Source: Dysgonamonadaceae bacterium
GTDB lineage: Bacteria > Bacteroidota > Bacteroidia > Bacteroidales > Azobacteroidaceae
NCBI GenBank assembly: GCA_031260045.1
Contig: JAIRKO010000018.1
Span: 1 to 42,880 of the forward strand
Direction: 5' to 3'
Length of the DNA: 42,880 nucleotides
Numbering within the stretch: position 1 is the first letter of the stretch; the number at the start of each line of letters is the position of its first letter. The notes beneath the pieces were generated by a model that did not search any database, had not been told where the DNA came from, and worked only from the letters and a program-made list of their open reading frames with translations. Of the stretch, positions 10,047 through 42,880 are shown piece after piece. A program made the position numbers and the translations under genes.

Positions 10047-11492
10047 ATGCCACCACCACTCATTCATATAAGCCGCGCTGTGCTTCGCAACCCGGAACTA
10101 CGTTTTCAGAGCGCCACCAACTTTGACCTCTACCCCAATCAACATTGGGCGGTGGTAGGCTCCAACGGGGCAGGAAAAACAACCTTTGCCAATTTGCTGG
10201 CGGGCAAACTGCCCCTTGCCGAAGGCGTCATTACCTACAACATATCCGGCGACGCGCCGCTGCACGAAAAGGTAAAAATGGTTAGCTTTCGCAACATGTA
10301 CGGATTGGTCGATTCGCGCCACCTGTATTACCAGCAACGGTGGCACTCAGCGGAGGAAAAAACGCCGTTGGTGCGCGACGTAATACAAGCCTCCGGCAGC
10401 GAAAACGGGTTACAGAAACTCATCAATTTGTTTGGAGTAGAGGACTTGCTCGACAAAAACATCATTTGCCTGTCCAGCGGAGAGTTGCGCAAAATTTTAA
10501 TTATCAACGAGCTAAAAACAGTTCCCAAACTGCTGATTTTGGATAACCCCTACATTGGGCTTGACGAAAAGTCGCGCATGTTGCTAAGCGACCTGCTCGC
10601 GCAGTTGGCGGCGACCGGCGATATGCAACTGATGCTTATCCTTCCCGATCCAAGCGAAATACCCGACGTGGTAACGCACGTGCTTCCCATTGTCCATATG
10701 CGGTGTCTACAGGGCGTAAGCGTTTCTGCCTTTTTTGCCGACGCCGAATTGCGAAGCCTTATGTTTGCCCGGCAGCAGTTGCACATTCTGCCGCCCGTAC
10801 AGGAATCGTCGGACGCCAACTACCATTCGGCGCTGGAAATGCACAACATTCGGGTGCGCTACGGGGACTACACCATTTTGGAAGACTTGAACTGGCGGAT
10901 AAACAGGGGCGAAAAGTGGGCGTTGCTCGGCGCTAACGGCACGGGCAAGTCAACCCTGCTAAGCCTGATTTGCGGCGACAGCCCGCAGGCTTACGCCAAC
11001 GACTTTTCGCTTTTCGGGAAAAAGCGCGGCACGGGCGAGAGCATTTGGGAAATTAAAAGGCGCATTGGCTACGCCTCGCCGGAGTTGCTCCTTTACTACC
11101 GCGACGATATTGCCTGCCTTGACGTTGTGTGTTCTGGATTTTTTGACCACGTGGGGTTGCATCGCAAATGTACGCCAACACAGCGTTACGCCGCCCGGCA
11201 GTGGATGGAGGTATTCGGCATTGCCCGCCTTGAAGAAGTTTCTTTTCTCAAAATATCTTTCGGTGAGCAACACTTGGTCATGCTGGCGCGGGCATTCGTG
11301 AAGAATCCGGAACTGCTGATTTTGGACGAGCCTATGCACGGCTTAGACCCGTCGAACAAGGCGAGGGTTATGCAGGTTATCGAAATGTTTTGCGGACAAA
11401 AAAACAAAACGCTCATATACGTTACGCACTATCTTAGTGAAGTGCCGAAGAGTATTGTCCGACGAAAAAACCTGACGAAAAAGCAACGGTAA
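10047..11492 (+). CDS. Two-cassette ABC ATPase, ModF/PhrA-like
   Basis: The 481-residue protein contains two complete ABC ATPase cassettes and no membrane segment. The first has Walker A GSNGAGKTT (near 39), signature LSSGELRK and Walker B LLILDNP. The second has GANGTGKSTLLSL (near 293), signature ISFGEQHL and Walker B LLILDEPMHGLD. This is the arrangement of ModF, once called a photorepair protein. Its true role is unclear, and it is not a transporter on its own. No molybdate permease or binding protein lies nearby. The first cassette has an asparagine (LDNP) where the catalytic glutamate normally sits, so it may bind but hydrolyse ATP poorly; the second keeps the glutamate (LDEP). Confidence 0.85.
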   Translation: MPPPLIHISRAVLRNPELRFQSATNFDLYPNQHWAVVGSNGAGKTTFANLLAGKLPLAEGVITYNISGDAPLHEKVKMVSFRNMYGLVDSRHLYYQQRWHSAEEKTPLVRDVIQASGSENGLQKLINLFGVEDLLDKNIICLSSGELRKILIINELKTVPKLLILDNPYIGLDEKSRMLLSDLLAQLAATGDMQLMLILPDPSEIPDVVTHVLPIVHMRCLQGVSVSAFFADAELRSLMFARQQLHILPPVQESSDANYHSALEMHNIRVRYGDYTILEDLNWRINRGEKWALLGANGTGKSTLLSLICGDSPQAYANDFSLFGKKRGTGESIWEIKRRIGYASPELLLYYRDDIACLDVVCSGFFDHVGLHRKCTPTQRYAARQWMEVFGIARLEEVSFLKISFGEQHLVMLARAFVKNPELLILDEPMHGLDPSNKARVMQVIEMFCGQKNKTLIYVTHYLSEVPKSIVRRKNLTKKQR

Positions 11493-11617
11493 TCATTATG
11501 ACGGCTGCGGTTAAAAAAGCCCGTCGTCCCGCCTTCGGGAATAACTTTAAACCATAGCGTATTTAGCAAATCCGAAACATTTTACAGGGATTTATAGCGT
11601 AATTGTTCAAAATATAC

Positions 11618-11625
11618 TATATTTG
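11618..11625 (+). promoter_or_regulatory. -7 promoter box for secDF
   Basis: TATATTTG matches TAnnTTTG, 56 bases before ATG 11682. The -33 element is not clear. Confidence 0.55.
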
Positions 11626-11681
11626 CACGCCGAAATCTAAGGATTTCATAAATTAATGTCAAAAATAAATCATAAAATCAG

Positions 11682-14657
11682 ATGCAAAATAAAGGATTTG
11701 TAACGGTCTTTGCCGCAATGTTGAGTTTGGTATGCTTATTTTATTTGTCGTTTACGCTCGTAACGAATAAATACTACAACGAAGCGAAAGAATATGCGGC
11801 TTCAGGCTATGGAAGCGAGAGCTACTACCTTGATTCGTTATCTACAAAAAAGGTATGGCTGGGATACACCCTGAAAAAAAGCCGCACGATGGAGTTAAAT
11901 CTTGGTCTTGACCTGAAAGGCGGGATGAGTGTGATTATGGAAATCAGTGTTGCCGACATCCTGAAATCGTTGGCAAACCATAACCCGGACGCCGATTTTA
12001 ACCAAGCGCTGGCAAATGCTACGGCGCGACAGGCTACGAGCAGTCAGGATTACATTACGCTGTTTACGGAAGAATATCGCAAATTAGACAAAAACGCCCG
12101 CCTGTCGGCTATTTTCAGCACTTTTGAACTGAAAGACCGAATTCAACCGCAAAGTTCGGATGCGCAGGTTGAAAACGTTTTAAGGGCGGAGTTGAAAAGC
12201 GCAATCGACAATTCGTTCAACGTGCTTCGTACCCGTATCGACCGCTTTGGCGTGGTCGCCCCAAATATCCAAAAAATGCAAACCGACGGGCGCATTTCCA
12301 TCGAACTTCCGGGCATCAAGGAACCCGAACGTGTACGGTCGTTGCTGCAAGGAAGTGCAAACCTTGAATTTTGGGAAACTTACGAAGAAAAAGAAATACA
12401 TCAGGCTTTGCTTGCTGCAAACACGATTATTCGAGATTCGATAGCAAACGTTCAACCTCAAACAACTGCCGCCGCAGAAGAAACGCCGACCGACATTGAA
12501 GAAACGGAAACGCCCTTGGATTCTTTATTTGCCGACGACGAAAAACCGGAAAGTACAACCGCAGAAAATGAGGTAAATACAAATGATGCGGATTATTTCC
12601 AAAAAAAATTCCCACTGTTTTATGTCTTGAACCTGAATCCCGACATGACCGAAGGCAGGGGACCTATTGTCGGAACCGTTCGGAAAATCGACATGAAAAC
12701 GATCGACAAGTACCTGAGCATGAGAAGAGTGCAGGATGTGCTTCCGCGACAGTTGAAATTGAGATGGGGAGTAAGTCCGATCGACGAACAGGAAAGTTTT
12801 TACCAATTATATGCGCTGAAAATTACTACCCGCAACGGGAGAGCGCCGCTGGAAGGCGACGTTGTAACCGACGCTACGGACGAATTTAGCCAGCATACCA
12901 ACGCTGCGGAAGTGAGCATGAAAATGAACAGCGAAGGCGCTAAAAAATGGGCGCGCCTGACCAAAGAAAATATTGGGCGGTGCGTTGCCATCGTGCTGGA
13001 CGATCAGGTTTATTCCGCTCCGGTGGTAAACAGCGAAATTCCTAACGGACAATCGAATATCTCCGGGCATTTCACACAGGAAGAAGCCAAAGACTTGGCA
13101 AATGTGCTGAAATCGGGTAAAATGTCGGCTCCCGCGCATATTGTTCAGGAAGAAGTGGTTGGTCCTTCGTTGGGACAGGAAGCCATTAACAAGGGATTTA
13201 TATCCTTTCTATTCGCACTCATTGTTTTAATGGCTTACCTGATTGTAGTATACGGACTTAAACCCGGTTTGATTGCCAACTTTGCCCTGCTGATGAACTT
13301 GTTCTTTACGATGGGATTTTTGGCGTCTTTCCATGCCGTGTTAACGCTTTCGGGTATAGCCGGCGTCATCTTGGCTCTGGCGATTGCGGTGGATGCCAAC
13401 GTGTTGATTTACGAGCGCATCAAGGAAGAAATCAGAGGCGGAAAACCGGTGAAAAAGGCTGTAGAAGAGGGTTATAAGAAAGCTTTCTCGGCTATTTTCG
13501 ACTCCAACCTGACTTCGATTATTACCGGCGTTATCCTCTATATTTTCGGTTCGGGACCTATTCGGGGTTTCGCTACTACCTTGATTTTCGGTATTGTTAT
13601 CTCGTTTTTCACCGCTGTATTCCTGACCCGCGTGATTTACTCCTATTTTATGGAAAAAGGCAAATTACTGGATTTGTCTTTCACCACTTCGCTGACGAAA
13701 AATTTCTTGGTGAATCCTGCTTTCAACCTGATGAAAAACAGGAAATTGATATATATTGTCAATGTGGCGGTTTTGATTGTCTGCGTAGGCTTTCTTGCCG
13801 TCAGGGGATTAAATCAGGGAATTGATTTTACGGGCGGACGGAATTACATTGTTCTTTTTGACCAACCGGTAAATACCGTGCAGGCGCAGGAATTGCTTGA
13901 TCCCTATTTTGAAAACCACACGCCGAGCATCATAACTTACGGAAAATCGGAACAGGTGCGCGTTTCGACCAATTACCGGATTGCCGAACAATCGGAAGGC
14001 ATCGACAGGGAAATAACTGGAAAAATGTATGATGCGTTCAAGCCTCTGCTGAAAAAGGGAACAAGCTACGAGCAATTTATGGCAGACAATGTAAGAAGTT
14101 CCCAAACCGTGGGCCCTGCTATTGCAGAAGACATTAAGCAAGGCGCCATTTTTGCCGTTATCTTTGCCGTTATCGCCATCGGACTTTATATTTTATTGCG
14201 GTTCAGGGATATTTCGTATAGCGTCGGTTCAATCGTCGCTTTGACGGCTGATGCGCTGTTTGTTATTGGCGTGTATGCTATTTTGTGGGGATTTGTTCCG
14301 TTCTCGCTGGAGGTAGACCAAACATTTATCGGCGCTATCCTGACGGTAATCGGTTATTCGATCAACGACAAAGTGGTTATTTTCGACCGCGTGCGCGAAT
14401 ATACCCATCTGTATCCGAGTCGCTCCAAGTACGAACTGTTCAACGGCGCGCTGAACTCTACGCTCGACCGTACATTCAACACGAGTTTCAGTTCGCTCCT
14501 TGTGCTGATTATCATCTTCTTTTTTGCAGGAGATGCCATCCGCAGTTTCTCATTTGCCATGTTGCTCGGCGTATTTATCGGGACGTTCTCGTCGCTGTTT
14601 ACCGCCGCGCCTCTCGCTTATGAAATTCAAAACAGGAGATTGAAAAAGAGTAATTAA
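11682..14657 (+). CDS. secDF: Protein translocase subunit SecDF (fused SecD-SecF)
   Basis: SecDF uses proton flow to help pull secreted proteins through SecYEG after SecA has pushed them. The 991-residue protein is a natural fusion of SecD (about 1-670) and SecF (about 680-991), usual in Bacteroidetes. Seen are an N-terminal membrane helix, the LNLGLDLKGGMSVIMEI motif near 72, a large periplasmic P1 domain, a second half with NQGIDFTGGRNY near 710, and six membrane segments in each half. An acidic, low-complexity insert rich in E, T and D (about 260-300) interrupts the SecD periplasmic part. It is monocistronic, with a promoter before it and a terminator at 14681-14720. Confidence 0.97.
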   Translation: MQNKGFVTVFAAMLSLVCLFYLSFTLVTNKYYNEAKEYAASGYGSESYYLDSLSTKKVWLGYTLKKSRTMELNLGLDLKGGMSVIMEISVADILKSLANHNPDADFNQALANATARQATSSQDYITLFTEEYRKLDKNARLSAIFSTFELKDRIQPQSSDAQVENVLRAELKSAIDNSFNVLRTRIDRFGVVAPNIQKMQTDGRISIELPGIKEPERVRSLLQGSANLEFWETYEEKEIHQALLAANTIIRDSIANVQPQTTAAAEETPTDIEETETPLDSLFADDEKPESTTAENEVNTNDADYFQKKFPLFYVLNLNPDMTEGRGPIVGTVRKIDMKTIDKYLSMRRVQDVLPRQLKLRWGVSPIDEQESFYQLYALKITTRNGRAPLEGDVVTDATDEFSQHTNAAEVSMKMNSEGAKKWARLTKENIGRCVAIVLDDQVYSAPVVNSEIPNGQSNISGHFTQEEAKDLANVLKSGKMSAPAHIVQEEVVGPSLGQEAINKGFISFLFALIVLMAYLIVVYGLKPGLIANFALLMNLFFTMGFLASFHAVLTLSGIAGVILALAIAVDANVLIYERIKEEIRGGKPVKKAVEEGYKKAFSAIFDSNLTSIITGVILYIFGSGPIRGFATTLIFGIVISFFTAVFLTRVIYSYFMEKGKLLDLSFTTSLTKNFLVNPAFNLMKNRKLIYIVNVAVLIVCVGFLAVRGLNQGIDFTGGRNYIVLFDQPVNTVQAQELLDPYFENHTPSIITYGKSEQVRVSTNYRIAEQSEGIDREITGKMYDAFKPLLKKGTSYEQFMADNVRSSQTVGPAIAEDIKQGAIFAVIFAVIAIGLYILLRFRDISYSVGSIVALTADALFVIGVYAILWGFVPFSLEVDQTFIGAILTVIGYSINDKVVIFDRVREYTHLYPSRSKYELFNGALNSTLDRTFNTSFSSLLVLIIIFFFAGDAIRSFSFAMLLGVFIGTFSSLFTAAPLAYEIQNRRLKKSN

Positions 14658-14680
14658 TTTGTTGATTATGAATTACGCCG

Positions 14681-14720
14681 AAACTGTCATTCTCACTTTT
14701 GCGGGGATGGCAGTTTTTTT
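14681..14720 (+). terminator. Intrinsic terminator of secDF
   Basis: AAACTGTCAT pairs with ATGGCAGTTT (one G-U pair) and is followed by a T run. It lies 24 bases after the secDF stop. Confidence 0.75.
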
Positions 14721-14792
14721 GAGTAGCCTTTTTTGCGGGTCTTCGCTCCGTATGCCCGCAAAGACGAAATAAACGCAAAATTTAAACTATTT

Positions 14793-15578
14793 ATGACAAA
14801 TTCAAAAAAAAACCTCATTTTAATAACCAACGACGACGGGGTTTATGCTTCGGGCATCAACAAATTAATAGAAGCCATCGCACCTTTGGGCGAAGTCGTG
14901 GTTGTCGCCCCCGATAAACCCCGTTCAGGCATGTCGGGCGCGATAACATGCGCAAATCCGATTCGGGTTTCTTTGCTGAAAGACGACGAAAAAGATTTGA
15001 AAATCTATGCCTGTACGGGTACGCCGGTCGACTGCGTTAAAATCGGAACGGACAGATTATTGCCTCGCAAACCCGATTTGCTTGTTTCGGGCATCAACCA
15101 CGGCTCGAATGCGGCGGTTTCCGTCATCTATTCGGGAACGGTGGGCGCTGCCATTGAAGGCTGTATCATCGGAATTCCTTCTCTCGCCGTTTCTTTGACC
15201 GACAATTCTCCTCACGCCGATTTCGGCGAAGCGGCAAAATTCGGCAAATCCATAGCGGAAAAAATACTTAAAGAAGGTCTTCCGAAAGGAATTTGCCTGA
15301 ATTTGAACGTTCCCAATATCCCGAAGGTAAAAGGTCTGAAAGTCGGCTCGCAAACAGCCGGACGGTGGACGAAAGAGTTTGAGGAAATGAAAGACCCGTC
15401 CGGCAAAAGCGTTTATTGGCTGACCGGCGACTTTCTCAACGACGAACCCGATAATGTAAACAGCGACGAATGGGCGCTTGCCAACGGTTATGCCGCGCTT
15501 GTTCCTTTATATATCGACATGACGGCGTATGGTTTTATTGAAAAAATTAAAAATTGGGAAAAAATAGCCGGTTTTTGA
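14793..15578 (+). CDS. surE: 5'/3'-nucleotidase SurE
   Basis: SurE is a cytoplasmic metal-dependent nucleoside monophosphate phosphatase. The 261-residue protein shows LITNDDGVYASGINKL at the N-terminus, where the two aspartates bind the metal. RSGMSGAIT and SGINHGSNAAVSVIYSGTVG supply the conserved serine and asparagine. The frame is open back to 14733, but that part overlaps a GC-rich hairpin sequence and reads as non-protein. ATG 14793 gives the expected MTNSKKNLILITNDD start. It stands alone between the secDF terminator and the RRM gene promoter. Confidence 0.96.
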   Translation: MTNSKKNLILITNDDGVYASGINKLIEAIAPLGEVVVVAPDKPRSGMSGAITCANPIRVSLLKDDEKDLKIYACTGTPVDCVKIGTDRLLPRKPDLLVSGINHGSNAAVSVIYSGTVGAAIEGCIIGIPSLAVSLTDNSPHADFGEAAKFGKSIAEKILKEGLPKGICLNLNVPNIPKVKGLKVGSQTAGRWTKEFEEMKDPSGKSVYWLTGDFLNDEPDNVNSDEWALANGYAALVPLYIDMTAYGFIEKIKNWEKIAGF

Positions 15579-15597
15579 ATGTTTTTTTCTAAAAAAC

Positions 15598-15627
15598 TTG
15601 TTTATTCGGTTTATTCATGTATCTTTG
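15598..15627 (+). promoter_or_regulatory. Promoter of the RRM protein gene
   Basis: TTG at 15598-15600, a 19-base spacer, then TATCTTTG at 15620-15627 fit the Bacteroidetes -33/-7 consensus. Start of transcription near 15634 leaves a leader of about 130 bases. Confidence 0.7.
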
Positions 15628-15761
15628 CCCCGCATTTGAGTTCTTTATAACAGTTTTATTCCAATTTTTCGAGTTCCTTATTCGTTTTTTGTATTTAAGT
15701 CTGCAATAATCCTCAATTGAATATTTATTATTTATTTTTTTATTATTTATTTTTATTTCAA

Positions 15762-16055
15762 ATGAACATTTTTATTGCAGGTTTGAGTTTCAAGGTAAAC
15801 GATACCGATTTGGCAAGTATTTTTGAAGAGTATGGTACGGTTGCATCCGCAAAAGTGATTACCGACCGTCAATCCGGACGTTCCAAAGGTTACGGGTTTG
15901 TAGAGTTGGACGACGAAGCGGCGGAAAAAGCAATCGCCGAATTAAACGGCGCCGAATACGACGGACGCACGATTTCGGTTTCGGAAGCAAAGCCCCGGGA
16001 AGAACGCCCGTTTAACGGGAATCGCGGCGGAGGCTATTCAAGGAACAGATATTGA
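15762..16055 (+). CDS. Small RRM-type RNA-binding protein
   Basis: The 97-residue protein is a single RNA recognition motif, with RNP2 as IFIAGLSF at the start and RNP1 as KGYGFVEL near residue 47. A short glycine/arginine tail (GNRGGGYSRNRY) follows. This matches the small glycine-rich RNA-binding proteins common in Bacteroidetes and cyanobacteria, which bind RNA and are often cold- or stress-linked. ATG 15762 is chosen because the upstream reading from 15717 is a T-rich leader and the RRM strand begins immediately after ATG 15762. It has a long AT-rich leader and its own terminator, consistent with post-transcriptional control. The RNA targets are unknown. Confidence 0.93.
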   Translation: MNIFIAGLSFKVNDTDLASIFEEYGTVASAKVITDRQSGRSKGYGFVELDDEAAEKAIAELNGAEYDGRTISVSEAKPREERPFNGNRGGGYSRNRY

Positions 16056-16079
16056 TTACGCTTTTCTTTATTTACAAAA

Positions 16080-16115
16080 TAACCCTCGATGGATTTCCGT
16101 CGGGGGTTTTTATTT
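16080..16115 (+). terminator. Intrinsic terminator of the RRM gene
   Basis: AACCCTCGA pairs with TCGGGGGTT across a short loop and is followed by TTTTATTTATT. Confidence 0.8.
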
Positions 16116-16120
16116 ATTCG

Positions 16121-16151
16121 GGGAATCTCGCGTCAAGCACGGGATGACGAG
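16121..16151. repeat. Family B repeat
   Basis: GGGAATCTCGCGTCAAGCAC followed by GGGATGACGAG resembles the family B core, with an imperfect stem. Confidence 0.6.
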
Positions 16152-16185
16152 AACAATAACCGTTGATTGGCGCGGTAGGGTGGAA

Positions 16186-16230
16186 CATCGCACACGTCAC
16201 TGCGAACCGCGAAGCGGTGAAGCAATCCAG
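16186..16230. repeat. Family A repeat, single arm
   Basis: CATCGCACACGTCACTGCGA then ACCGCGAAGCGGTGAAGCAA and TCCAG. The inner ACCGCGAAGCGGT is a near-perfect palindrome. It is almost identical to the copy at 30952-30995. Confidence 0.8.
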
Positions 16231-16307
16231 AAATACAAAAATTTACATATTGCTAAATAATTATCTGTCAATTTACTTAGATACAAACATATTAAATTTT
16301 TTTCATT

Positions 16308-17567
16308 ATGAACATTCTTATTTTAAGTACTTCCGAACGAACCGGCGGCGCTGCCATTGCCGCCAACAGACTTATGAAAGCGTTAATCAACAAGGGAATC
16401 AATGCCAAAGCATTGGTTTTGAATAAACAAACATCCGACAAGAACGTAATTTCCGTTCGGTCGTCGTTTATCAAAAAGCAACTTGCCCGGTTCAATTTCC
16501 TTTGGGAACGGTGGATTATATTTGTAGATAACCGTTTTAGCCGCAGGAATTTGTTTAGAGTTTCCATAGCAAATGTCGGGTTTGACATTTCCGGACATCC
16601 GCTTGTGAAATCGGCGGACATAATCCATATCCACTGGATAAATCAGGGATTTTTGTCGCTGAACGGCATTAAAAAATTAGTGCAAACAGGTAAGCCAATT
16701 GTTTGGACAATGCACGACATGTGGCTTTGTACGGGCGTTTGCCATTATGCATGGCAATGTGAAAAATATGTAGAACAATGCGGGAATTGTATGTTTTTAA
16801 ATTCAAACAGGACGAAAGATTTATCATACAAAGTTTTGCGGGAAAAACAATTTTTATCCGAAACGAATATTCAAATAGTAACCGTCAGTTCTTGGTTAAA
16901 AGAATTGGCAGCAAAAAGCGTATTGACAAAGTCGCTTAATATTTCAGTAATACCCAATGTAATAGACACTTCCGTATTCACTCCTTTAAATAAGCAAACA
17001 GCAAGGGATCAGCTTTCCTTTCCGAAAGACAAAAAAATCATATTAATGGGCGCCGCTAAATTGAACGATCCCATTAAAGGTTTTGAATATCTTCGGCAGG
17101 CGTTGGCTTTGTTAAAAGAAAAAAGGGATGATCTTCTTTTAGTCCTGTTCGGAAAAATAAAAAACTGTGATACTTTTTTATCCGATCTTGCTGTCGAACA
17201 TATTTTCATGGATGCAATCGAAGATGTTTCTCTAATTGTCCAATTGTATGCGGCAGCCGATGTAACCGTTGTCCCGTCGCATTACGAAACATTCGGGCAA
17301 ACACTTTCGGAGGCTATGGCTTGCGGTTGCCCGACGGTGAGTTTCGATAATAGCGGACAAACGGATATAATTGACCATAAAGTCAATGGCTATCTGGCTA
17401 AATATCAAGACGTAGAAGATTTGGCTAATGGGATTGAGTGGATATTATTTGATGCGAATTATCAACAGTTGTCGCAAAACGCTTATCAAAAAGCGGTTAA
17501 TTTTTATTCGGAGGAAATAATTACTATACAATATATGCAATTATATGAAAATGCAATAAACTCTTAA
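16308..17567 (+). CDS. GT4-family glycosyltransferase
   Basis: The 419-residue GT-B enzyme has an N-terminal acceptor half beginning NILILSTSERTGGAAIAANR. WTMHDMWLCTGVCHYAWQCE follows near residue 140, then two more cysteines (C-x-x-C), a pattern frequent in cell-surface polysaccharide transferases. The donor half contains VPSHYETFGQTLSEAMACG, the E-x7-E motif of family 4. It probably adds a sugar to an exopolysaccharide, O-antigen or glycoprotein glycan at the cytoplasmic membrane face. No other polysaccharide gene is adjacent, and the gene sits between dispersed repeats and more AT-rich codons, so it may be an orphan or acquired. The sugar and acceptor are unknown. Confidence 0.9.
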   Translation: MNILILSTSERTGGAAIAANRLMKALINKGINAKALVLNKQTSDKNVISVRSSFIKKQLARFNFLWERWIIFVDNRFSRRNLFRVSIANVGFDISGHPLVKSADIIHIHWINQGFLSLNGIKKLVQTGKPIVWTMHDMWLCTGVCHYAWQCEKYVEQCGNCMFLNSNRTKDLSYKVLREKQFLSETNIQIVTVSSWLKELAAKSVLTKSLNISVIPNVIDTSVFTPLNKQTARDQLSFPKDKKIILMGAAKLNDPIKGFEYLRQALALLKEKRDDLLLVLFGKIKNCDTFLSDLAVEHIFMDAIEDVSLIVQLYAAADVTVVPSHYETFGQTLSEAMACGCPTVSFDNSGQTDIIDHKVNGYLAKYQDVEDLANGIEWILFDANYQQLSQNAYQKAVNFYSEEIITIQYMQLYENAINS

Positions 17568-17701: not shown

Positions 17702-20563
17702 TTACAAAAGCCTTTCCCTCAAAAACCGCCCCGTATGGGAATCCCCGCAGTCGGCAACTTCCTCCGGCGTTCCCGCGCAAACCAGATAACCGCCGTTTTC
17801 CCCGCCTTCGGGTCCCAAATCTATCACATGATCGGCACATTTGATTACATCCATGTTATGCTCAATAATCACAATCGTGTGTCCACGCTCAATCAATGCG
17901 TCAAACGCTTTCTGCAGGGTTTTAATATCGTGGAAATGCAGCCCTGTTGTAGGTTCGTCGAAAATAAAAAGCGTCGGCGCAGCCTTTTCTTCTTCCAAGT
18001 GAAAAGCCAGTTTTACGCGCTGGTTTTCCCCGCCGGAAAGCGTAGAGGAACTTTGCCCCAGTTTGACATAACCCAAACCTACTTCCTGCAGGCATTTCAA
18101 CTTTTTAACAATCCTTTTTTCCTGACTTTGGTGATTGGGTTTGTCGGATTTTTGCTTTTCCCCGAAAAACGCAATCGCCTCGTCAATCGTCATTTCCAGC
18201 ACGTCGTAAATATTTTTCCCCCTGTATTGTACATCCAATACGTCCTGCCTGAACCGCCTGCCCCTACAACTGTCGCATTTCAGCGCCACATCCGCCATAA
18301 ACTGCATTTCGATGGTGATAAATCCTTCGCCTTTACATTCTTCGCACCGCCCGCCTTCGACATTGAACGAAAAATAAGCCGGCGAAAACTTCATTTGCCG
18401 GGCTAACGACTGTTCGGAAAACAGTTTGCGGATTTCATCGTAAGATTTCGTGTAAGTCGCCGGATTGGAGCGGGTGGAACGCCCGATGGGATTTTGGTCT
18501 ACAAATTCGACCGCGCTAATCCTGTCCAAATCGCCGGAAATGGAAGCTGCCGGAATGGACATTTCCCGCGCTCCCTCGCAAAACTGCCTCACGCCCTGAT
18601 AGAAAACATCCCGCACCAGCGACGATTTGCCCGAACCGCTCACGCCGGTAACTACCGTAATGACATTCAGGGGAAATTTTACGTCGATGAATTTCAGACT
18701 GTTTTTACGCGCCCCCTTGATTTCGATGTAATTGTTCCATTTCCGACGCCGGGCGGGTACGGGAATCTGTTCCGCTCCGGTCAGGTAATTGACGGTATAA
18801 CCCGTAGAAACGTTGCCTGCAATTTTCCCAATCTCGCCCCGATATACGATTTCCCCGCCTTTTTGTCCGGCGTCGGGACCAACGTCGATTATGTAATCGG
18901 CAGCCCGGATAATTTCCCCGTCATGCTCCACGACAACCACCGTATTCCCAAGCGTTTGCAACTGCCTCAGCACCTTTATCAGCAATCCCGTGTCCCGCGA
19001 ATGCAAACCGATACTCGGCTCGTCGAGGACGTAAAGAGAGCCAACCAGACTGCTGCCCAGAGAGGCAGCCAGATTAATCCGCTGACTTTCACCGCCGGAA
19101 AGCGTCGACGACAAACGGTTGAGCGTCAAATAACCCAAACCCACGTCGTTCAGAAATTGCACGCGGGCGTTGATTTCCGTCATAAGCCGTTTGGCGACAA
19201 GCGTATCGTGTTCGTCCAGCGTCAGGTTGAGGAAAAAATCCCTGAGTTTGGCAACCGGCATATCAACCAGTTCGGTAATCGTCTGCCCGCCCACTTTCAC
19301 GTATTGAGCCTGCGGTTTCAGCCGTGTGCCGTGGCAAAACGGGCAGGTTGTTTTCCCCCGATAACGCGCCAGCAGCACCCGATATTGAATTTTATACACA
19401 TTCTCTTCCACATGCCGAAAAAAATCGTCAATGCCTTTCACCGTACCGTTTCCGTGCCAAAGTAAATCTTTTTCTTCCTGCGAAAGCTGATAATAAGCGC
19501 GATGAATCGGAAAATTATATTTGGACGCGCGGGCGATAAAGTCCGATTTCCATTCCCCCATTTTGTCACCTTTCCAGCAAGCCACAGCGTCCTGAAATAC
19601 CGACAGGGACTGGTTGGGAATCACCAAATTTTCATCAATTCCGGTTACTTTTCCAAAACCTTCGCATTGCGGACACGCGCCCGCAGGACTATTGAAATTA
19701 AACATTAAATCGGTTGGTTCTTCAAATTCAACGCCGTCCGCTTCAAATTTGCGGGAAAACTCCTTCACCGCAACGCCTTCGTCGGTATAAAACTTGAGTA
19801 TCGCATAACCGCCGCCTTCAAAAAAAGCGGTTTCTACCGAATCGGAAAGGCGGGAAATCGTCATCGGGTCGGAAGAGGCAGTCAGGCGGTCAATAAGGAG
19901 GTACATCTCGCCGGAAGAATATTTGGGCGATTGAGTCTGTTGAAGCGGTTTGTCGATATCATGCACGACATGCTTTTTGTCGCTCAGTATTTCGTCAATG
20001 CGGTGCGCCTCGTCATTGATTTCTATGCGGGAAAAGCCTTCTTTTTGGAATATTTCCAGTTGTTCCCGCACAGTGCGGTCGCTGTGGGCGGGCATCTTCG
20101 TCAAAAGGGAAAGGCGGACGCCTTCGGGATATTTCAACATTTCATCAACCACGTCGGCAACGTTATGCTTTGTAACTTCCTGTCCCGATGCAGGTGAAAC
20201 GGTTTTGCCTACGCGGGCGAAAAGCATCCGCATATAATCGTAAATTTCCGTTGACGTGCCAACCGTCGAACGGGGATTTCGGGTATTCACCTTTTGTTCG
20301 ATAGCGATTGCCGGAGGGATTCCTTTGATGTAATCCGTTTCGGGTTTGCTCATCCGTCCGAGAAACTGGCGGGCGTAGGAAGAAAGGCTTTCCACGTAGC
20401 GGCGCTGACCTTCGGCGTAAAGCGTGTCGAAAGCCAGAGAAGACTTTCCCGAACCCGACAAACCGGTGATGACAACAAACTTGTTGCGGGGAATCTCCAC
20501 ATCAATGTTTTTCAAGTTGTTGACCCTCGCGCCTTTGATGATGATATTTGATTCTAATACCAT
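17702..20563 (-). CDS. uvrA: Excinuclease ABC subunit A
   Basis: UvrA finds bulky DNA lesions and loads UvrB in nucleotide excision repair. The 953-residue protein has two ABC modules, each split by insertions. Walker A motifs are [15 protein letters not shown] (near 35) and [15 protein letters not shown] (near 640); signatures [16 protein letters not shown] and [16 protein letters not shown]; Walker B motifs [11 protein letters not shown] and [11 protein letters not shown]. Zinc-finger cysteines appear as [20 protein letters not shown] and CEECKGEG with [12 protein letters not shown] 20563 is selected because the longer start at 20584 is inside the TACCTTTG promoter box. It is single and convergent with the glycosyltransferase gene. 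Confidence 0.98.
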
Positions 20564-38428: not shown

Positions 38429-38502
38429 TCTTCCTTAGCTCAGTCGGTTAGAGCATCTGACTGTTAATCAGAGGGTCCTTGGTTCAAGTCCAAGAGGGAG
38501 AG
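38429..38502 (+). tRNA. tRNA-Asn (GTT), first copy
   Basis: The 74 bases fold as a full cloverleaf. The acceptor stem is TCTTCCT with AGGGAGA; the D stem GCTC with GAGC; the anticodon stem TCTGA with TCAGA around CTGTTAA (anticodon GTT); the T stem CTTGG with CCAAG around TTCAAGT. The discriminator is G, as expected for Asn. CCA is not encoded. Confidence 0.97.
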
Positions 38503-38522
38503 CAGCAGAGAAACCGGAATAT

Positions 38523-38596
38523 TCTTCCTTAGCTCAGTCGGTTAGAGCATCTGACTGTTAATCAGAGGGTCCTTGGTTCAAGTCCAAGAGGGAGAG
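38523..38596 (+). tRNA. tRNA-Asn (GTT), second identical copy
   Basis: All 74 bases are identical to the first copy, 94 bases downstream, so the two are probably processed from one transcript. The flanks differ after the discriminator. The second copy borders the integrated element. Confidence 0.97.
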
Positions 38597-38748
38597 CAAG
38601 CAATCAAAAATACGCCTTTTTCGACAATGCCTGCAAAACGAAATCCCGCATGAACATTCCACATTCCCAATTATTTACCTCTTTCATCCCTTTCGTGTTT
38701 TCAATTTTCATATATTATTAACGTTTCAACTGAAAATATATTATTTTT

Positions 38749-38800
38749 AAGTATGAGTTAATTTTTTTCTGGATTGCTTCAGGCTTCACCTTCGCAATAG
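38749..38800. repeat. Family A repeat, single arm
   Basis: AAGTATGAGTTAATTTTTTT then CTGGATTGCTTCAGGCTTCA and CCTTCGCAATAG. The AT-rich edge resembles the right edge of the 408-589 element. Confidence 0.7.
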
Positions 38801-38958
38801 ATTTGTTGCGAAATAGCCCTTTACAGTAAAAATTATCTTTGCCCAATGAAATTATGAGTTAGTAAAAAAATTTAATAACGATCGTTTTCGTCAAATTACC
38901 AACGTTAATGTTACTATAACAAACATAGCAAAATAAATATCCCTAAACATGTTATTGA

Positions 38959-38998
38959 AAGTACGTTAAGCATTTCCAATGTTTAACGTACTTTTTTG
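38959..38998 (+). terminator. Intrinsic terminator upstream of the integrase
   Basis: AAGTACGTTAA pairs perfectly with TTAACGTACTT and is followed by a T run. It insulates the element from tRNA transcription. The T run overlaps the -33 box of the integrase promoter. Confidence 0.8.
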
Positions 38999-39025
38999 TT
39001 TTTTCCACTTTTTGCCGTATTTTTG
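38995..39025 (+). promoter_or_regulatory. Promoter of the integrase remnant
   Basis: TTTG (38995-38998), a 19-base spacer and TATTTTTG (39018-39025); ATG 39080 follows. Confidence 0.65.
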
Positions 39026-39079
39026 TTACCGGTTTGTTACTCGAATAAACCAGCGACAAAATATATTAACAGTCTGATT

Positions 39080-40018
39080 ATGAATAAAAAATTAGCAAAA
39101 GAACCGGTAAGGTTAAGGGAAAAAGCATTGACAAATGGCAATAAAAGTTTGTATTTGGATATATATAGGGACGGCAAAAGGAAATACGAGTTTTTGAAAT
39201 TATATATAGTCCCAGAAAAAAAACAAGAAGAAAAAAACCAAAATTTGGAGACGTTAAAGACCGCCCAACGCATCCGCGCCAAACGCCAAATTGAACTGCA
39301 AAACGATGAATACGGTTTTCCCAACAAATCAAAAATAAAAACGCCTTTCCTGTATTATTTTAGAACGATGTGTGAAGCAAGCAAGAAAAAAGACAGCGCC
39401 GGCTCTCTGGGTAATTGGTATAGTTGTCTCAAACATCTGGAAAGGTATTGTACAGAAGAAACAACGTTCGAACGACATTACAACTGATTGGATTAACGGA
39501 TTTAAGGATTATTTGGATAATGCCTACAAAGATTTATCAGGAACCAAGAAATTGCTGCAAAACACAAAAAAAATCTATTCCAGCAAATTGAGGTCTTGCA
39601 TAAACAAAGCGTTCAATGATGGAATAATACCTATTAATCCATTAAGAGGCTCTGAGGGCTTCAAAATAGAAGAAACAGAAAAGACATACCTAACATTTGA
39701 AGAGGTTAAGAAAATGGCTAAAACGGCGTGCAAAAAACAAGAATTAAAACGGGCGTTTCTGTTTGCCTGTCTCACAGGACTAAGAAAAAGCGACATTGAA
39801 AAAAAGGTAAAGATAAACCACCTTTATGTGTTGAGATAAACAAGAAAAGTAATGATTTGGAGCGAGGTACAGACCTTTGGGGATAAAACCAGAATCGTAT
39901 TTAAGCAGAAGAAGACCGGCAGGCAAGAATATTTTGATATCAATAAGCAAGCAGTAGATTATTTGGGAGAACGCCGGAACGATACGGATAAGGCAGGCAT
40001 TACAGAAACAGGGATTAA
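39080..40018 (+). pseudogene. Tyrosine recombinase (phage-type integrase), broken
   Basis: The N-terminal part (MNKKLAKEPVRLREKAL, then NGNKSLYLDIYRDGKRKYEF) is the Arm-binding domain of Bacteroidetes integrases. Near 39450-39480 the frame shifts by one and continues with the SAM-like core-binding domain (DWINGFKDYLDNAYKDLSGT). The start of the catalytic domain follows (FACLTGLRKSDIE, containing the first catalytic arginine). A stop at 39837-39839 and about 50 extra bases interrupt it; the same frame resumes as WSEVQTFGDKTRIVFKQKKT and ends at 40018. The H-x-x-R and tyrosine regions are missing. It cannot make an active recombinase, so the element is immobile unless helped in trans. Confidence 0.88.
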
Positions 40019-40275
40019 TTGAAGATGCAGAGGCACAACCTTTGAAATGGAAAAAAACCAATGCATTGCTCGGCTACTTTGTTGAAGTTGCCAACGACAA
40101 ATTGAAACTGAAACACGGGGATCCGATGAAAATAAAACCATTTGAGACGCTGTTTAATGTGAAACGTTTGTCGTCCATTATCAGCGATTACAAAAACAAA
40201 GGCAATCAAAAAAACGAATGTAAACCATATGGATATGAAATTATTGCTAAAATATTTTCAGATTTAAAATACTAA
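39958..40275 (+). pseudogene. Remnant of an unrecognised mobile-element gene fused to the integrase scar
   Basis: A frame different from the integrase is open here. Its protein-like part begins RQALQKQGLIEDAEAQPLKW and continues NALLGYFVEVANDKLKL, FETLFNVKRLSSIISDYKNK and ends KPYGYEIIAKIFSDLKY. No family is recognised with confidence; the style (PLKW, short basic C-terminus) recalls small proteins encoded beside Bacteroidetes integrases. The beginning overlaps the end of the integrase remnant in another frame, without its own promoter or clear start (ATG 40042 is internal). This suggests one deletion joined two genes. Confidence 0.55.
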
Positions 40276-40290
40276 AACACAACGACTAAT

Positions 40291-40348
40291 AAAAAAAGAA
40301 ATCCGATGTTGTATGACTGTCATCCGACATCGGATTTCTTTTTTTTTA
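40291..40348. terminator. Strong bidirectional terminator
   Basis: AAAAAAGAAATCCGATGT pairs perfectly with ACATCGGATTTCTTTTTT, closing a loop of about 17 bases. A and T runs flank it on either side, so it can work in both directions. Confidence 0.9.
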
Positions 40349-40380
40349 TAATGTTTCATCTTTGTGCCGTTGTTTTTTAT

Positions 40381-40440
40381 AGGGCGGGGTTCCATGCGCC
40401 CTGAAAGCAAGCGGCAACGCGGGAAAGTCCCGTACCGCCG
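40381..40440 (+). ncRNA. GC-rich structured leader upstream of the HTH gene
   Basis: A 60-base GC-rich island in AT-rich surroundings can fold as two hairpins. GGGCG pairs with CGCCC around GGGTTCCATG. A nested stem has CGGGAAAGTCCCG inside GCGG...CCGC. A weak -7 box (CATCTTTG, 40357-40364) would start transcription just before it. The HTH gene starts at 40471. No known RNA family is recognised; it could be a leader, a small RNA or a replication signal. Confidence 0.45.
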
Positions 40441-40470
40441 TCAATTATTAATCAATAATAAATAATTGTT

Positions 40471-40800
40471 ATGGAAAATTTTAAGGATGAACTAACAAAA
40501 ATTAAGGAAAAATTAGCAGTAGTTGAACAATTAGCGACGCTTGGGCAGAAAAAAGTATTGACTATGAGCGATGCAAGCATATTGACCGGATTAAGCAGAA
40601 GTAGATTGTATAAGTTGACTTGCTACAAGCAAATTCCACATTACAAAGCCGACGGCGGGAAATTGAATTATTTTGACAGGGACGAGTTGACGGCTTGGCA
40701 GCTGAAGAATAAAATTAAAACCGCTGATGAAATAGAAAAAGAGGCGGAAAATTACATGCTGACGGGTGCTGTGAAAAAGAAAGGGGGGAAGCATGTTTGA
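40471..40800 (+). CDS. Helix-turn-helix protein, excisionase/MerR-like
   Basis: The 109-residue protein has a short N-terminal coiled segment (KDELTKIKEKLAVVEQLATL). A winged-HTH of the excisionase type follows: VLTMSDASILTGLSRSRLYK, then IPHYKADGGKLNYFDRDEL. The C-terminal tail is charged. Proteins of this type bind DNA beside integrases and act in excision or control of mobile elements in Bacteroidetes. Its stop overlaps the start of the next gene by 8 bases, indicating translational coupling. With the integrase broken, an excision role is no longer possible in cis; control of the replication genes remains possible. Confidence 0.87.
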   Translation: MENFKDELTKIKEKLAVVEQLATLGQKKVLTMSDASILTGLSRSRLYKLTCYKQIPHYKADGGKLNYFDRDELTAWQLKNKIKTADEIEKEAENYMLTGAVKKKGGKHV

Positions 40801-41233
40801 GGATTGGTACTATTATTTATTTGAACGTCGAAACGGAATATTCAGAAACCGCTATGTAAACACTAAAAGCACAGGCTATTACGCTCCATTAGAAAGGTTA
40901 AAAAACGTTAAGGGTGAAATTACACTGGACGAGATTATGGATTTTGTCAAAATGCACCCAAGTAGTTATAAACTTGGGGGACAGGTAATTTATTCCGGAG
41001 AGCCTAAAGTAGAGGAGTTTATAGGCGGCAAGAAAAACCCGTTTTATGACAACCAGCCGGATGGATTTATAAATATCAATGATGCCGCTGGCAAAACAAA
41101 TAAAATCTTATTCGTTCCACGCGGTAAATATATAGTAAAAACAATTGCCAAAAGGTTAGCAAACAAGAAGATAAACAATGTTTCCAAAAAATGGCAACAA
41201 ATATTATATGGGTTGTCCGGAGAAAGTCATTGA
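40793..41233 (+). CDS. Unrecognised element protein
   Basis: The 146-residue protein begins MFEDWYYYLFERRNGIFRNR and is rich in Tyr, Lys and Asn. No membrane segment or known motif is seen. A basic C-terminal part (KYIVKTIAKRLANKKINNVS) suggests nucleic acid contact. It overlaps the HTH gene by 8 bases. Its last 19 bases are the first copy of a 23-bp repeat, so the current stop may lie in duplicated sequence. It shares the operon with a DNA-binding protein and a replication initiator, which suggests a role in element maintenance. Confidence 0.65.
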   Translation: MFEDWYYYLFERRNGIFRNRYVNTKSTGYYAPLERLKNVKGEITLDEIMDFVKMHPSSYKLGGQVIYSGEPKVEEFIGGKKNPFYDNQPDGFININDAAGKTNKILFVPRGKYIVKTIAKRLANKKINNVSKKWQQILYGLSGESH

Positions 41234-41378
41234 AAATCCCATTTCATTGTTGCCAGAAATTAGCAACAAATATATAGCATTGGGTCGTCCGGAGAAAGTC
41301 ATTGAAAATACAATTTCCCTTATAGTAAGTAACATCTGTTTCTATTTTTTAGCAACAATATTATTTTTGATAGTGTAG
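41178..41378 (+). CDS. Possible small membrane protein overlapping the previous gene
   Basis: A 66-codon frame starts inside the previous gene in another frame. It contains two copies of PEKVIEN and ends with a hydrophobic stretch (SLIVSNICFYFLATILFLIV) fit for one membrane helix. The 72-base repeat period keeps it in frame. No start signal is visible, and the composition may just follow the AT-rich repeats. Low confidence. Confidence 0.3.
   Translation: MFPKNGNKYYMGCPEKVIENPISLLPEISNKYIALGRPEKVIENTISLIVSNICFYFLATILFLIV
41215..41309 (+). repeat. 72-bp-spaced direct repeats upstream of the replication gene
   Basis: GTCCGGAGAAAGTCATTGAA and the next 3 bases occur at 41215-41237 and 41287-41309. 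A less perfect lead (GCAACAAATAT...GGG) precedes each. TTGTTGCCA and the following AGCAACAA add a short inverted repeat between them. Confidence 0.8.
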
Positions 41379-41433
41379 ATTTGCCAAAAATCAACGATTA
41401 TTTTTAATGCAGTCGATTTTAATAATCAAAACC

Positions 41434-42360
41434 ATGTACGATACCGTAAATTTTAAGATAGAGAGAGCGGGGTTATTTGGGGCAAATTCATTTGACATCA
41501 AACGCTATTTGTCCAATGTAACGGAGTGGAAAAATAAGAACGGGAGCAATTACACCGGTAACGCCGAAAACTATAAAATTACTGTTTCGGAAAAAGGTAT
41601 AATATCTTTATCTGGCAGCCTATCAAAATATTACTTTGGGGATAACTTGCAAAGTTTGACACGGCGGGATACCAAACAGGCAATTGATAAACTAAGCGAC
41701 CTGATACATCTGGACTTTAGAAAGGCAAAAGTTACACGCTTTGATATTGCCGGAAATATATTAACCCAAAGGCAGCCGGCGGATTATTATCCGTATCTGG
41801 GTAGCAAGCAATATTTTGAGCGGGTACAAGCCACGACGAACACGCTTTATTATAACAACCATCAAAAACAACTGTGCTTTTATAATAAAGCCAAACAGGC
41901 GGCGACTAAAAAAATACCGATACCAACAGAACTGCAAAACGAAAATCTTTTGAGGTATGAGTTACGATATTCCAATCACATTAATAAACAGTTCAAGACG
42001 GATGTAACGGCTACGATGTTGTACGAAGAGGCTTTTTACAGCCTCGTCCCTCAAAATTGGTACAATGAATTTAATTCAATCGAGACAACTAAAAGTAATA
42101 ATTTTATGCCAAACGTAAGAACAATAAAACAAGCAGAAAGAGCCGCATTTGCACGATTACTACAAAACGCGGGGCAACCATTCATTGATGAAATTATAAG
42201 CGATTGTAAGGCAAATAAGCGATTTAAACACCGAGCGGATTACTCAAAATTGAAAGCCAAGTTAAAAAAATTGATAGTCGCATCCGATTTTGAAGACAAC
42301 AGCGATTTAATAAAAGAGTTGAAGCTGAAAATATATGAGATAGCGAGAGATGCCCGGTGA
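41434..42360 (+). CDS. Replication initiation protein, phage/plasmid gene II/X-like
   Basis: The 308-residue protein starts MYDTVNFKIERAGLFG and contains KVTRFDIAGNILTQRQPADY near 110-130, YYNNHQKQLCFYNKAKQA near 160 and LLRYELRYSNHINKQF near 185. This order (R-x-D strand, a Y-x-K-like segment, R-x-E-x-R strand) is that of filamentous phage gene II/X replication proteins and their plasmid relatives, which nick double-stranded DNA for rolling-circle replication. The family match is by pattern, without a search. An alternative ATG at 41407 adds nine residues. Direct repeats lie just upstream and an AT-rich, hairpin-bearing region downstream, so the origin may be close. Confidence 0.75.
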   Translation: MYDTVNFKIERAGLFGANSFDIKRYLSNVTEWKNKNGSNYTGNAENYKITVSEKGIISLSGSLSKYYFGDNLQSLTRRDTKQAIDKLSDLIHLDFRKAKVTRFDIAGNILTQRQPADYYPYLGSKQYFERVQATTNTLYYNNHQKQLCFYNKAKQAATKKIPIPTELQNENLLRYELRYSNHINKQFKTDVTATMLYEEAFYSLVPQNWYNEFNSIETTKSNNFMPNVRTIKQAERAAFARLLQNAGQPFIDEIISDCKANKRFKHRADYSKLKAKLKKLIVASDFEDNSDLIKELKLKIYEIARDAR

Positions 42361-42767
42361 GTATCATTTCCCTACTTTATTAAATATAAATAATTAATTT
42401 TTATAAAAAAATGCCCTTTTTATTCAAAAATAAATAAAAAAGACAGCAAAATAATTAATTTTTTTATTAAAAAAACTCTAATTCTAAAGGGAATTATTAC
42501 AAAATGATAGATATTTTTTTTGGCAATTTAGTGTAAAATTAAGTATCTAATTATAATTATATATCTGAAACATAGGGGGTAAGAAAAGTTTTTTAGGAAA
42601 ATCGCGGCATACCCCTTATTAATATGAGAGTTCAAAACGTGATTTTTGAAATTGATTTTTTTTGAAATTAAATTTTTAGACGCCTCGACCGGTCGATGAA
42701 GCGGATAGCCTGAACCATCAAAAAAAGAAAAATAAGACATTATTTTTGTTATTCCCAAAACAACACA
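42361..42767. other. AT-rich gene-free stretch with hairpin and palindrome
   Basis: No gene is recognised. It holds poly-A/T tracts, an inverted repeat (TAGGGGGTA at 42573-42581 with TACCCCTTA at 42610-42618, one mismatch) and a small GC-rich island with the perfect 12-bp palindrome TCGACCGGTCGA (42685-42696). An origin or recombination site is possible. Confidence 0.5.
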
Positions 42768-42775
42768 TACCTTTG
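42745..42775 (+). promoter_or_regulatory. Promoter reading out of the right edge
   Basis: TTTG (42745-42748), a 19-base spacer and TACCTTTG (42768-42775) match the consensus. The gene it serves lies beyond 42880; the last bases read as a basic then hydrophobic stretch in one frame, without an ATG. Confidence 0.65.
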
Positions 42776-42880
42776 CAGCGTAAAAATAAGGAAAATAAAA
42801 ACAGACTAAAAGTATTTTTTCTTACAATTTTGGTGCTGTTTTGTTGCTTGATAATTTTTTATACGTTATTATTAACTGTA

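Follow-up and report, generated by a model that had tools for sequence, protein, structure and literature searches.

A decayed integrative element with a rolling-circle initiator in Dysgonamonadaceae and its relatives at tRNA genes and CRISPR loci

The right end of the window, by which we mean the whole stretch of 42,880 nucleotides analysed (Dysgonamonadaceae contig JAIRKO010000018.1), very probably holds a defunct copy of a small integrative element, of a kind that would replicate by rolling circle once excised. As part of this explanation, which is held with that confidence as a whole, the integrases of the element family have diverged to different host sites, the mapped ones being most often 3' ends of tRNA genes. 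By itself the window copy is of little importance; its relatives were found also at a tracrRNA gene and in a CRISPR repeat, and they suggest that Bacteroidales harbour integrative elements of the rolling-circle type in which no relaxase is recognised. A first-pass annotation had proposed an integrated, decayed element with an incomplete integrase and an initiator of the gene II/X family (Phage_CRI), which our results support, and had likened it to a filamentous phage, a label that is corrected below.

The copy in the window

As had been noted, two identical tRNA-Asn genes are followed by AT-rich DNA (Table 1): the GC content of 1-kb blocks was 0.36-0.38 from 38 kb on (n = 4) and 0.39-0.56 before, except for 0.34 at 21 kb. 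That the tRNA-Asn pair is the insertion site was not borne out. A tandem pair also occurs at 11 of 29 other loci of the genus, and the pair lies 426 bp from the first arm site, compared with core-to-arm distances of 93-157 bp in eight relatives; it is therefore probably not the attachment site of the window copy. No clear direct repeat that could be the attachment core was found around the copy. The start of ileS, considered as a candidate site, matched by 9 bp only, and neither a tRNA-Asn nor a kinase gene adjoined ileS at 30 ileS loci.

Table 1. Features at the right end of the window
Feature	Position	Strand	Basis or remark
tRNA-Asn, identical pair	38429-38503 and 38523-38597	+	ARAGORN; probably host flank
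Left attachment core, predicted stretch	38866..38930		Spacing: arm site 39023 minus 93-157 bp (8 relatives)
Putative arm-type sites of the integrase, two copies of TTGTTAC 11 bp apart	39017..39042	+	Sequence
Broken tyrosine integrase, C-terminal part missing	39080..39990	+	Domains, alignment with relatives
3' remnant of cargo gene, fused to broken integrase	39994..40275	+	Match to element B
Likely terminator, inverted repeat with 27-nt arms and a 1-nt spacer	40291..40345		Sequence
HTH_17/excisionase-type DNA-binding protein	40471..40800	+	Profile search
Family-3 protein, function without assignment	40793..41233	+	Relatives; overlaps HTH gene by 8 bp
Direct repeats, two interleaved pairs (37 nt and 29 nt) spaced by about 70 bp	41176..41317	+	Before Rep
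Rolling-circle initiator (Rep), Phage_CRI/RepD type	41434..42360	+	Profile and fold match
Right-end sequence	42715..42880	+	99% common with end of C51 (copy C); 38 bp more on C12 and C3
Promoter-like motif TACCTTTG	within 42715..42880	+	Sequence

The pieces of the integrase lie within 39080-39487, 39372-39839 and 39852-40022, and profile search found Arm-DNA-bind_5 (1.9e-15) and Phage_int_SAM_5 divided over these frames. Alignment to intact relatives revealed that the C-terminal part is gone, which we take to be the region of the HxxR...Y residues, in agreement with the first reading of an integrase without catalytic residues. Near 39990 it is fused to the tail of another gene of the family (58 bp, 91% identical to element B, a second element of the same genome). 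Arm-type sites are likewise present at both ends of the relatives L042 and L047.

The HTH gene and the gene of unknown function coupled to it were both recovered, the two reading frames overlapping. The HTH product matched HTH_17 (27.4 bits, cut-off 27) and phrog_25262 (3.1e-25), a PHROG of unknown function, with TIGR01764 under its cut-off. The family-3 protein has 146 aa compared with 153-189 aa in 13 relatives, and the model of a relative gave no clear fold match in PDB or BFVD. Profile search confirmed the gene II/X-like initiator as Phage_CRI (E 2.2e-17, 64 bits, cut-off 21.7), whereas Rep_trans (PF02486) stayed below its cut-off (22.3 versus 29.6 bits). The nearest solved folds are the plasmid initiators RepDE and RepN (PDB 4cwc, 4cwe, 4cij), a fold of the RepD/pT181 type at 10-14% identity; the Rep profile retrieved no Rep from PDB sequences. 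As three of 34 residues invariant in 12 relatives are changed (positions 150, 154 and 217), it is doubtful that the window initiator still works. The direct repeats before Rep may, at a guess, form the origin region.

At the right end, only the contigs C12 and C3 start with a match to the last 113 bp of the window; both then have 38 more bases in common and continue into DNA before ileS and cysN. The motif TACCTTTG resembles a promoter consensus.

Relatives at tRNA genes, a tracrRNA gene and a CRISPR repeat

Genomic islands that target tRNA or tmRNA genes carry the 3' part of the RNA gene and rebuild it on insertion, and tRNA genes are thought to be favoured integration sites, being conserved and rebuildable. 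Among 16 relatives with both ends, a core repeat was found in ten and no clear one in six; in six of the 16 the core lies at the 3' end of a tRNA gene. The order HTH gene, family 3, Rep is kept in 12 of 13 relative contigs (in the exception, L052, the contig ends within Rep), and family 3 precedes Rep in nine of 12 further loci. The relatives show two features of a non-canonical integrative and mobilizable element (IME): an integrase with site-specific attachment repeats, and a rolling-circle-type initiator or relaxase without a mating apparatus, as seen without a dedicated library of mating genes.

In L043, two copies of a 33-bp repeat, 6835 bp apart and each with a terminator hairpin, are identical to the tracrRNA region before cas9; the duplicated core is the 3' half of the RNA gene, which is rebuilt at one end. 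The tracrRNA was named by its bases in common with the repeat, its hairpin and its position, and gave no family match in Rfam. L057 is 96% identical to L043 over 3.7 kb, and identity stops at the tracrRNA anti-repeat, with Cas9 proteins behind the two elements that match in patches only (23-40%). Because the left end of L057 is lost, its contig has no CRISPR array and cas1-cas2 of both loci are 75% identical DNA, the pair may go back to one insertion followed by replacement of cas9. The gene names cas9, cas1, cas2, ileS, cysN, ychF, mnmE, RhuM and Fic were confirmed beyond inspection by eye and BLAST.

Element B, observed on one draft contig, is bounded by 18-bp cores 7273 bp apart. When its flanks were joined, the cores of the CRISPR array were 74-75 bp apart throughout and 75 bp apart at the restored place, so that the flanks rejoin to an intact site. 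Among 295 genomes of the order, 17 integrase matches were obtained (35-41% identity), of which only element B had a tracrRNA or repeat motif nearby, and a B-type integrase had two other matches in 393 genomes of the order (36-40%). IMG/VR searched with the integrases of both CRISPR sites gave no match. Only 13- and 14-base matches resulted when 22 spacers were compared with the window, L042-L061 and L139, and 19 spacers with the inside of B, C, the window, C12, C3 and L061. No report of a tracrRNA gene or CRISPR repeat as attB was found in the open literature reached by word search.

Rival readings

Phage_CRI is the family of the gene II protein of filamentous phages, and element B has two membrane-protein-like reading frames (61 aa, DUF6722; 33 aa, read by eye); in the window no short structural protein with a single membrane span was recognised without a membrane predictor. 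The initiator family and the two frames would suit a filamentous prophage (inovirus), or what is left of one, whose coat and Zot genes have disappeared or escape recognition. We nevertheless regard this reading as very improbable. The initiator was unmatched among 50,697 phage records and had no PHROG of known function, and none of the 38 genomes of the genus, that of the window included, gave a Zot match (the profile matched in five of 14 control genomes, and a divergent Zot could escape it). Where phage genes had been sought to the right, the DNA before ileS and cysN was met instead. In addition, ten cargo proteins of the relatives matched no family above cut-off, and the nearest solved folds are those of plasmid initiators. 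Small size, an integrase with a replication module, no recognised structural genes and one related contig in IMG/VR would also fit a satellite that relies on an unrelated helper phage for packaging or export. This is quite unlikely, as no helper was recognised and the single IMG/VR contig, the only one confirmed of 126 pattern matches, starts with host mnmE.

An appreciable chance, still clearly short of even, is left to Rep acting mainly as a relaxase in a MobT-like IME moved by a conjugative helper. In elements of Firmicutes, initiators of the Rep_trans type have a double role, in relaxation and in the start of replication (PMC5704250), and the fold match to RepDE/RepN agrees with this; on the other hand, a non-systematic look identified no oriT, coupling protein or helper, and the same review counts every IME known from Bacteroidetes at that time as canonical. 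For the CRISPR link, chance use of degenerate sites, with CRISPR repeat and tracrRNA as secondary targets, is unlikely. Its rarity would fit: none of 96 motif-bearing genomes had the tracrRNA motif twice on one contig, 16 of the 17 integrase matches had neither a tracrRNA motif nor a repeat motif within about 1.5 kb, and L043 and L057 are possibly one event. Against chance stand the perfect identity of the L043 core to the conserved tracrRNA core over its 33 bp, a geometry as in the tRNA cases, and the same element type abutting tracrRNA in two genomes.

Known systems and a possible life cycle

The integrative element proposed here resembles non-canonical streptococcal IMEs (Rep_trans/MobT; PMC5704250), which have a tyrosine integrase, a rolling-circle initiator, sites at gene 3' ends or tRNA genes and no mating apparatus; it differs in phylum, in Phage_CRI as best initiator score, in the lack of a visible coupling protein and in two lineages in CRISPR RNA genes. 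From pT181-type RepDE/RepN it is set apart by low identity and by being chromosomal with an integrase, and from Inoviridae, whose initiator family is alike, by having no recognised morphogenesis ATPase or coat gene and no phage-record match. The tRNA/tmRNA islands of TIGER/Islander (PMC12424338) likewise target RNA genes, whereas here tracrRNA, or the CRISPR repeat in element B, is used.

In a working copy such as B, the tyrosine integrase with its arm- and core-binding domains would insert the circle at a short chromosomal core, the HTH protein perhaps serving as an excisionase or as a switch. Once the element is excised, the RepD-like protein would nick an origin, which probably lies directly before the initiator gene, and copy the circle; as the element has no recognised transfer genes of its own, transfer to new cells would need a helper (conjugative element or phage). 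The 3' half borne by one lineage would rebuild the tracrRNA gene; the other would use the CRISPR repeat. That the family evolved integrases aimed at the RNA components of type II CRISPR-Cas, at both the tracrRNA gene and the repeat, is a tentative and rather unlikely proposal. If true, insertion and excision could change or switch tracrRNA, repeat insertion would split the array, and the elements would have a site found in immune hosts alone, together with some control over the immunity of these hosts. The tracrRNA core, near invariant in the Bacteroidales loci seen here, meets the same needs as tRNA genes. An element that first has to get into an immune cell and then settles in the gene of the guide-RNA scaffold would offer a directly testable link between integration and immunity.

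Some candidates were set aside. The apparent double motifs in G254, G296 and G297 were explained by an additional locus that has no cas9 next to it, by a match outside tracrRNA and by overlapping contigs. G323, with an integrase behind an intact tracrRNA, had no duplicate, lacked cas9 over the following 18 kb, and was left out of the count. In L139 from IMG/VR, considered as a tracrRNA insertion, the integrase lies directly behind a tmRNA, as identified by Rfam (ARAGORN found none).

Affiliation of the element and its right end

The decayed element near the right end of the window belongs to a small family of rolling-circle integrative elements of the Bacteroidales and is not a filamentous phage, the affiliation proposed in the first-pass annotation. 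Its Phage_CRI/RepD-type initiator had no relative among 50,697 phages, a Zot search of 38 genomes from the genus found no match, and the phage genes anticipated further to the right are missing. The final 113 bp of the window equal the first 113 bp of two other contigs of the same genome, C12 and C3, and the final 166 bp recur at the end of a third, C51. C12 and C3 have another 38 bases in common (one mismatch) and then diverge, C12 into the ileS leader, as seen by comparison with ileS at 29 other loci in the genus, and C3 into DNA before cysN. As host DNA is reached so soon, the element is about 4 kb long and carries no phage gene on this side. A promoter-like stretch close to this end has copies at five further places in the genome (83-97% identical), upstream of genes that form another repeated family.

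Relatives of the initiator were detected in five of the 58 genomes of a genus-weighted set, its own included (one weak, E 4.7e-5), on 13 contigs of the species collection (L058 and L048 being the same records as L043 of genome G006 and L042 of genome G008, respectively) and in 12 of 393 genomes of the order, again with its own (15 matches at E 1e-20). IMG/VR contributed one relative, and one of 72,556 plasmid records matched (25%). The own genome holds three initiators, namely the window copy (A), that of the intact element B and that of a fragment (C), the latter two on C51. The recurring gene order is integrase, cargo (Fic, family 4), HTH, family 3 and initiator; its last three genes were found in this order on 12 of the 13 species-collection contigs (L059 is a fragment, and the initiator gene of L052 runs off its contig), and family 3 preceded the initiator in nine of 12 further loci. 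Ten accessory proteins of the relatives gave no family above the cut-off. Such elements integrate at a core, as the junctions show for the relatives, and, judging from their protein families, are probably excised with the HTH protein, replicate as a rolling circle and move with a helper. Rep_trans-type initiators serving as both relaxases and replicators have been described (PMC5704250).

Coordinates of the features discussed
Feature	Location	Coordinates	Remark
HTH gene	window	40471-40800	
Family 3 gene	window	40793-41233	
Interleaved direct repeats	window	41176-41317	directly before initiator gene
Initiator gene	window	41434-42360	
Promoter-like stretch	window	42724-42791	
Promoter-like stretch	L021	402-469	
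Promoter-like stretch	L022	6-73	
Promoter-like stretch	L024		
Promoter-like stretch	L023		
Intact element B	L004 (C51)	10309-17560	in CRISPR repeat; with Fic protein and DUF6722 ORF
Third initiator copy C	L004 (C51)	18470-19974	
Lone CRISPR-repeat match	L004 (C51)	7988-8020	opposite strand
RhuM-family gene	L043	14371-15387	
RhuM-family gene	L057	17086-18105	

Decay and left end of the window copy

The reported loss of catalytic residues from the integrase was borne out by alignment with intact relatives, by which the window integrase keeps the arm-binding and core-binding domains and has lost the C-terminal part. By a deletion the gene was joined near 39990 to the end of a cargo gene, which matches element B at 91% over 58 bp. 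The family 3 protein has 146 aa compared with 153-189 aa in 13 relatives, and is 33% identical to the first of these. The initiator is an uninterrupted reading frame that differs at three of 34 columns invariant in 12 relatives; two of these changes replace acids, presumably metal-binding, by amides. In all three pairs among the own genome's initiator copies, change is greater at third codon positions than at the other two, so the initiator was under constraint in the past. The interleaved repeats before the initiator gene are possibly a replication origin.

In seven relatives whose core was mapped, as well as in L060, an element directly behind mnmE, 93-157 bp separate the core from the first arm-type site. 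With the first arm site of the window (TTGTTAC) at 39023, this spacing places its core near 38866-38930, to the right of the tRNA-Asn pair, whose last base is 38597. Elsewhere in the genus, 11 of 29 loci also have tRNA-Asn genes in tandem, and those beside the window copy probably reflect neighbourhood rather than targeting. The attachment repeat that the first-pass annotation had suggested looking for was not detected as a direct repeat of the window copy.

Attachment sites and CRISPR RNA genes

Cores were surveyed in 16 elements with both ends (sets of ten and six), the window copy lying outside these. Six have the core at a tRNA 3' end (three tRNA-Leu, with integrases 99% identical in two and 88% in the third, and three tRNA-Met), and one each at the ychF 3' end, at another site (L055), in a tracrRNA and in a CRISPR repeat; in the remaining six a clear core is missing, the longest exact repeat being 10-12 bp, about shuffle level where tested. 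Each of the six target tRNA genes is found at the initiator end, encoded on the opposite strand with the 3' end toward the element, and the tracrRNA of L043 is placed and oriented likewise. What is new is the occupation of CRISPR RNA genes by relatives, one of them in the same genome, as read from the sequence of draft assemblies in all CRISPR cases; a word search of the open literature found no earlier report of such genes as attachment sites.

The array around element B consists of 45-bp repeats. Each begins with the 18-bp core GTTGTGAATTGCTTTCAA, which is present at both element ends, 7273 bp apart. Removal of element B in silico gave a core spacing of 74-75 bp (66 bp at one edge), with 75 bp at the restored place and spacers of 29-30 bases. 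The cas9, cas1 and cas2 families used gave no gene in 20 kb around element B; those of this genome lie on contig C11, preceded by an unoccupied tracrRNA. Splitting of the array might silence the segment separated from the leader. Copy C starts directly behind the last, truncated repeat of the array, in opposite orientation to B, and a lone exact 33-nt match to the repeat lies about 1.6 kb from the array.

In G006 (L043) an element has the end of an rRNA operon on one side and cas9 on the other, with identical 33 bp at both element ends, 6835 bp apart. This repeat is assigned to the tracrRNA 3' half on four grounds: it aligns with the cas9 leader of the window's genome, its cas9-side copy runs on into TTGTGAATTGCTT, which is also present in the CRISPR repeat of the L043 contig, a terminator hairpin is predicted at both copies, and the tracrRNA core motif precedes cas9 in most other genomes examined. 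No Rfam family matched the candidate. The tracrRNA is complete at the cas9 end and its 3' half stands alone at the other, as in tRNA-targeting islands; the rebuilt tracrRNA keeps a host-derived 5' part, so that immunity is probably kept.

An element almost identical to that of L043 (96% identity over 3.7 kb and 99% over 0.9 kb) adjoins another tracrRNA in L057. Identity ends at the anti-repeat end and the Cas9 proteins behind match patchily (23-40%), which makes two separate insertions likely. A single insertion with later replacement of cas9 is conceivable, as cas1-cas2 of both loci are 75% identical in DNA, and the L057 contig has lost the element's left end and lacks the array. A RhuM-family gene lies behind cas9 at both loci.

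Among 295 genomes of the order, 96 contained the motif ACAACGGAATAATC (reversed control, six). Of the 30 motif loci returned, 26 could be read as tracrRNA and 24 had cas9 adjoining; the site is thus widely conserved. Its occupancy is rare, since none of the 96 motif-bearing genomes has the motif twice on one contig. In L147 (G323) the place expected for cas9, behind an intact tracrRNA, is taken by an integrase gene, and the 18 kb that follow hold no cas9.
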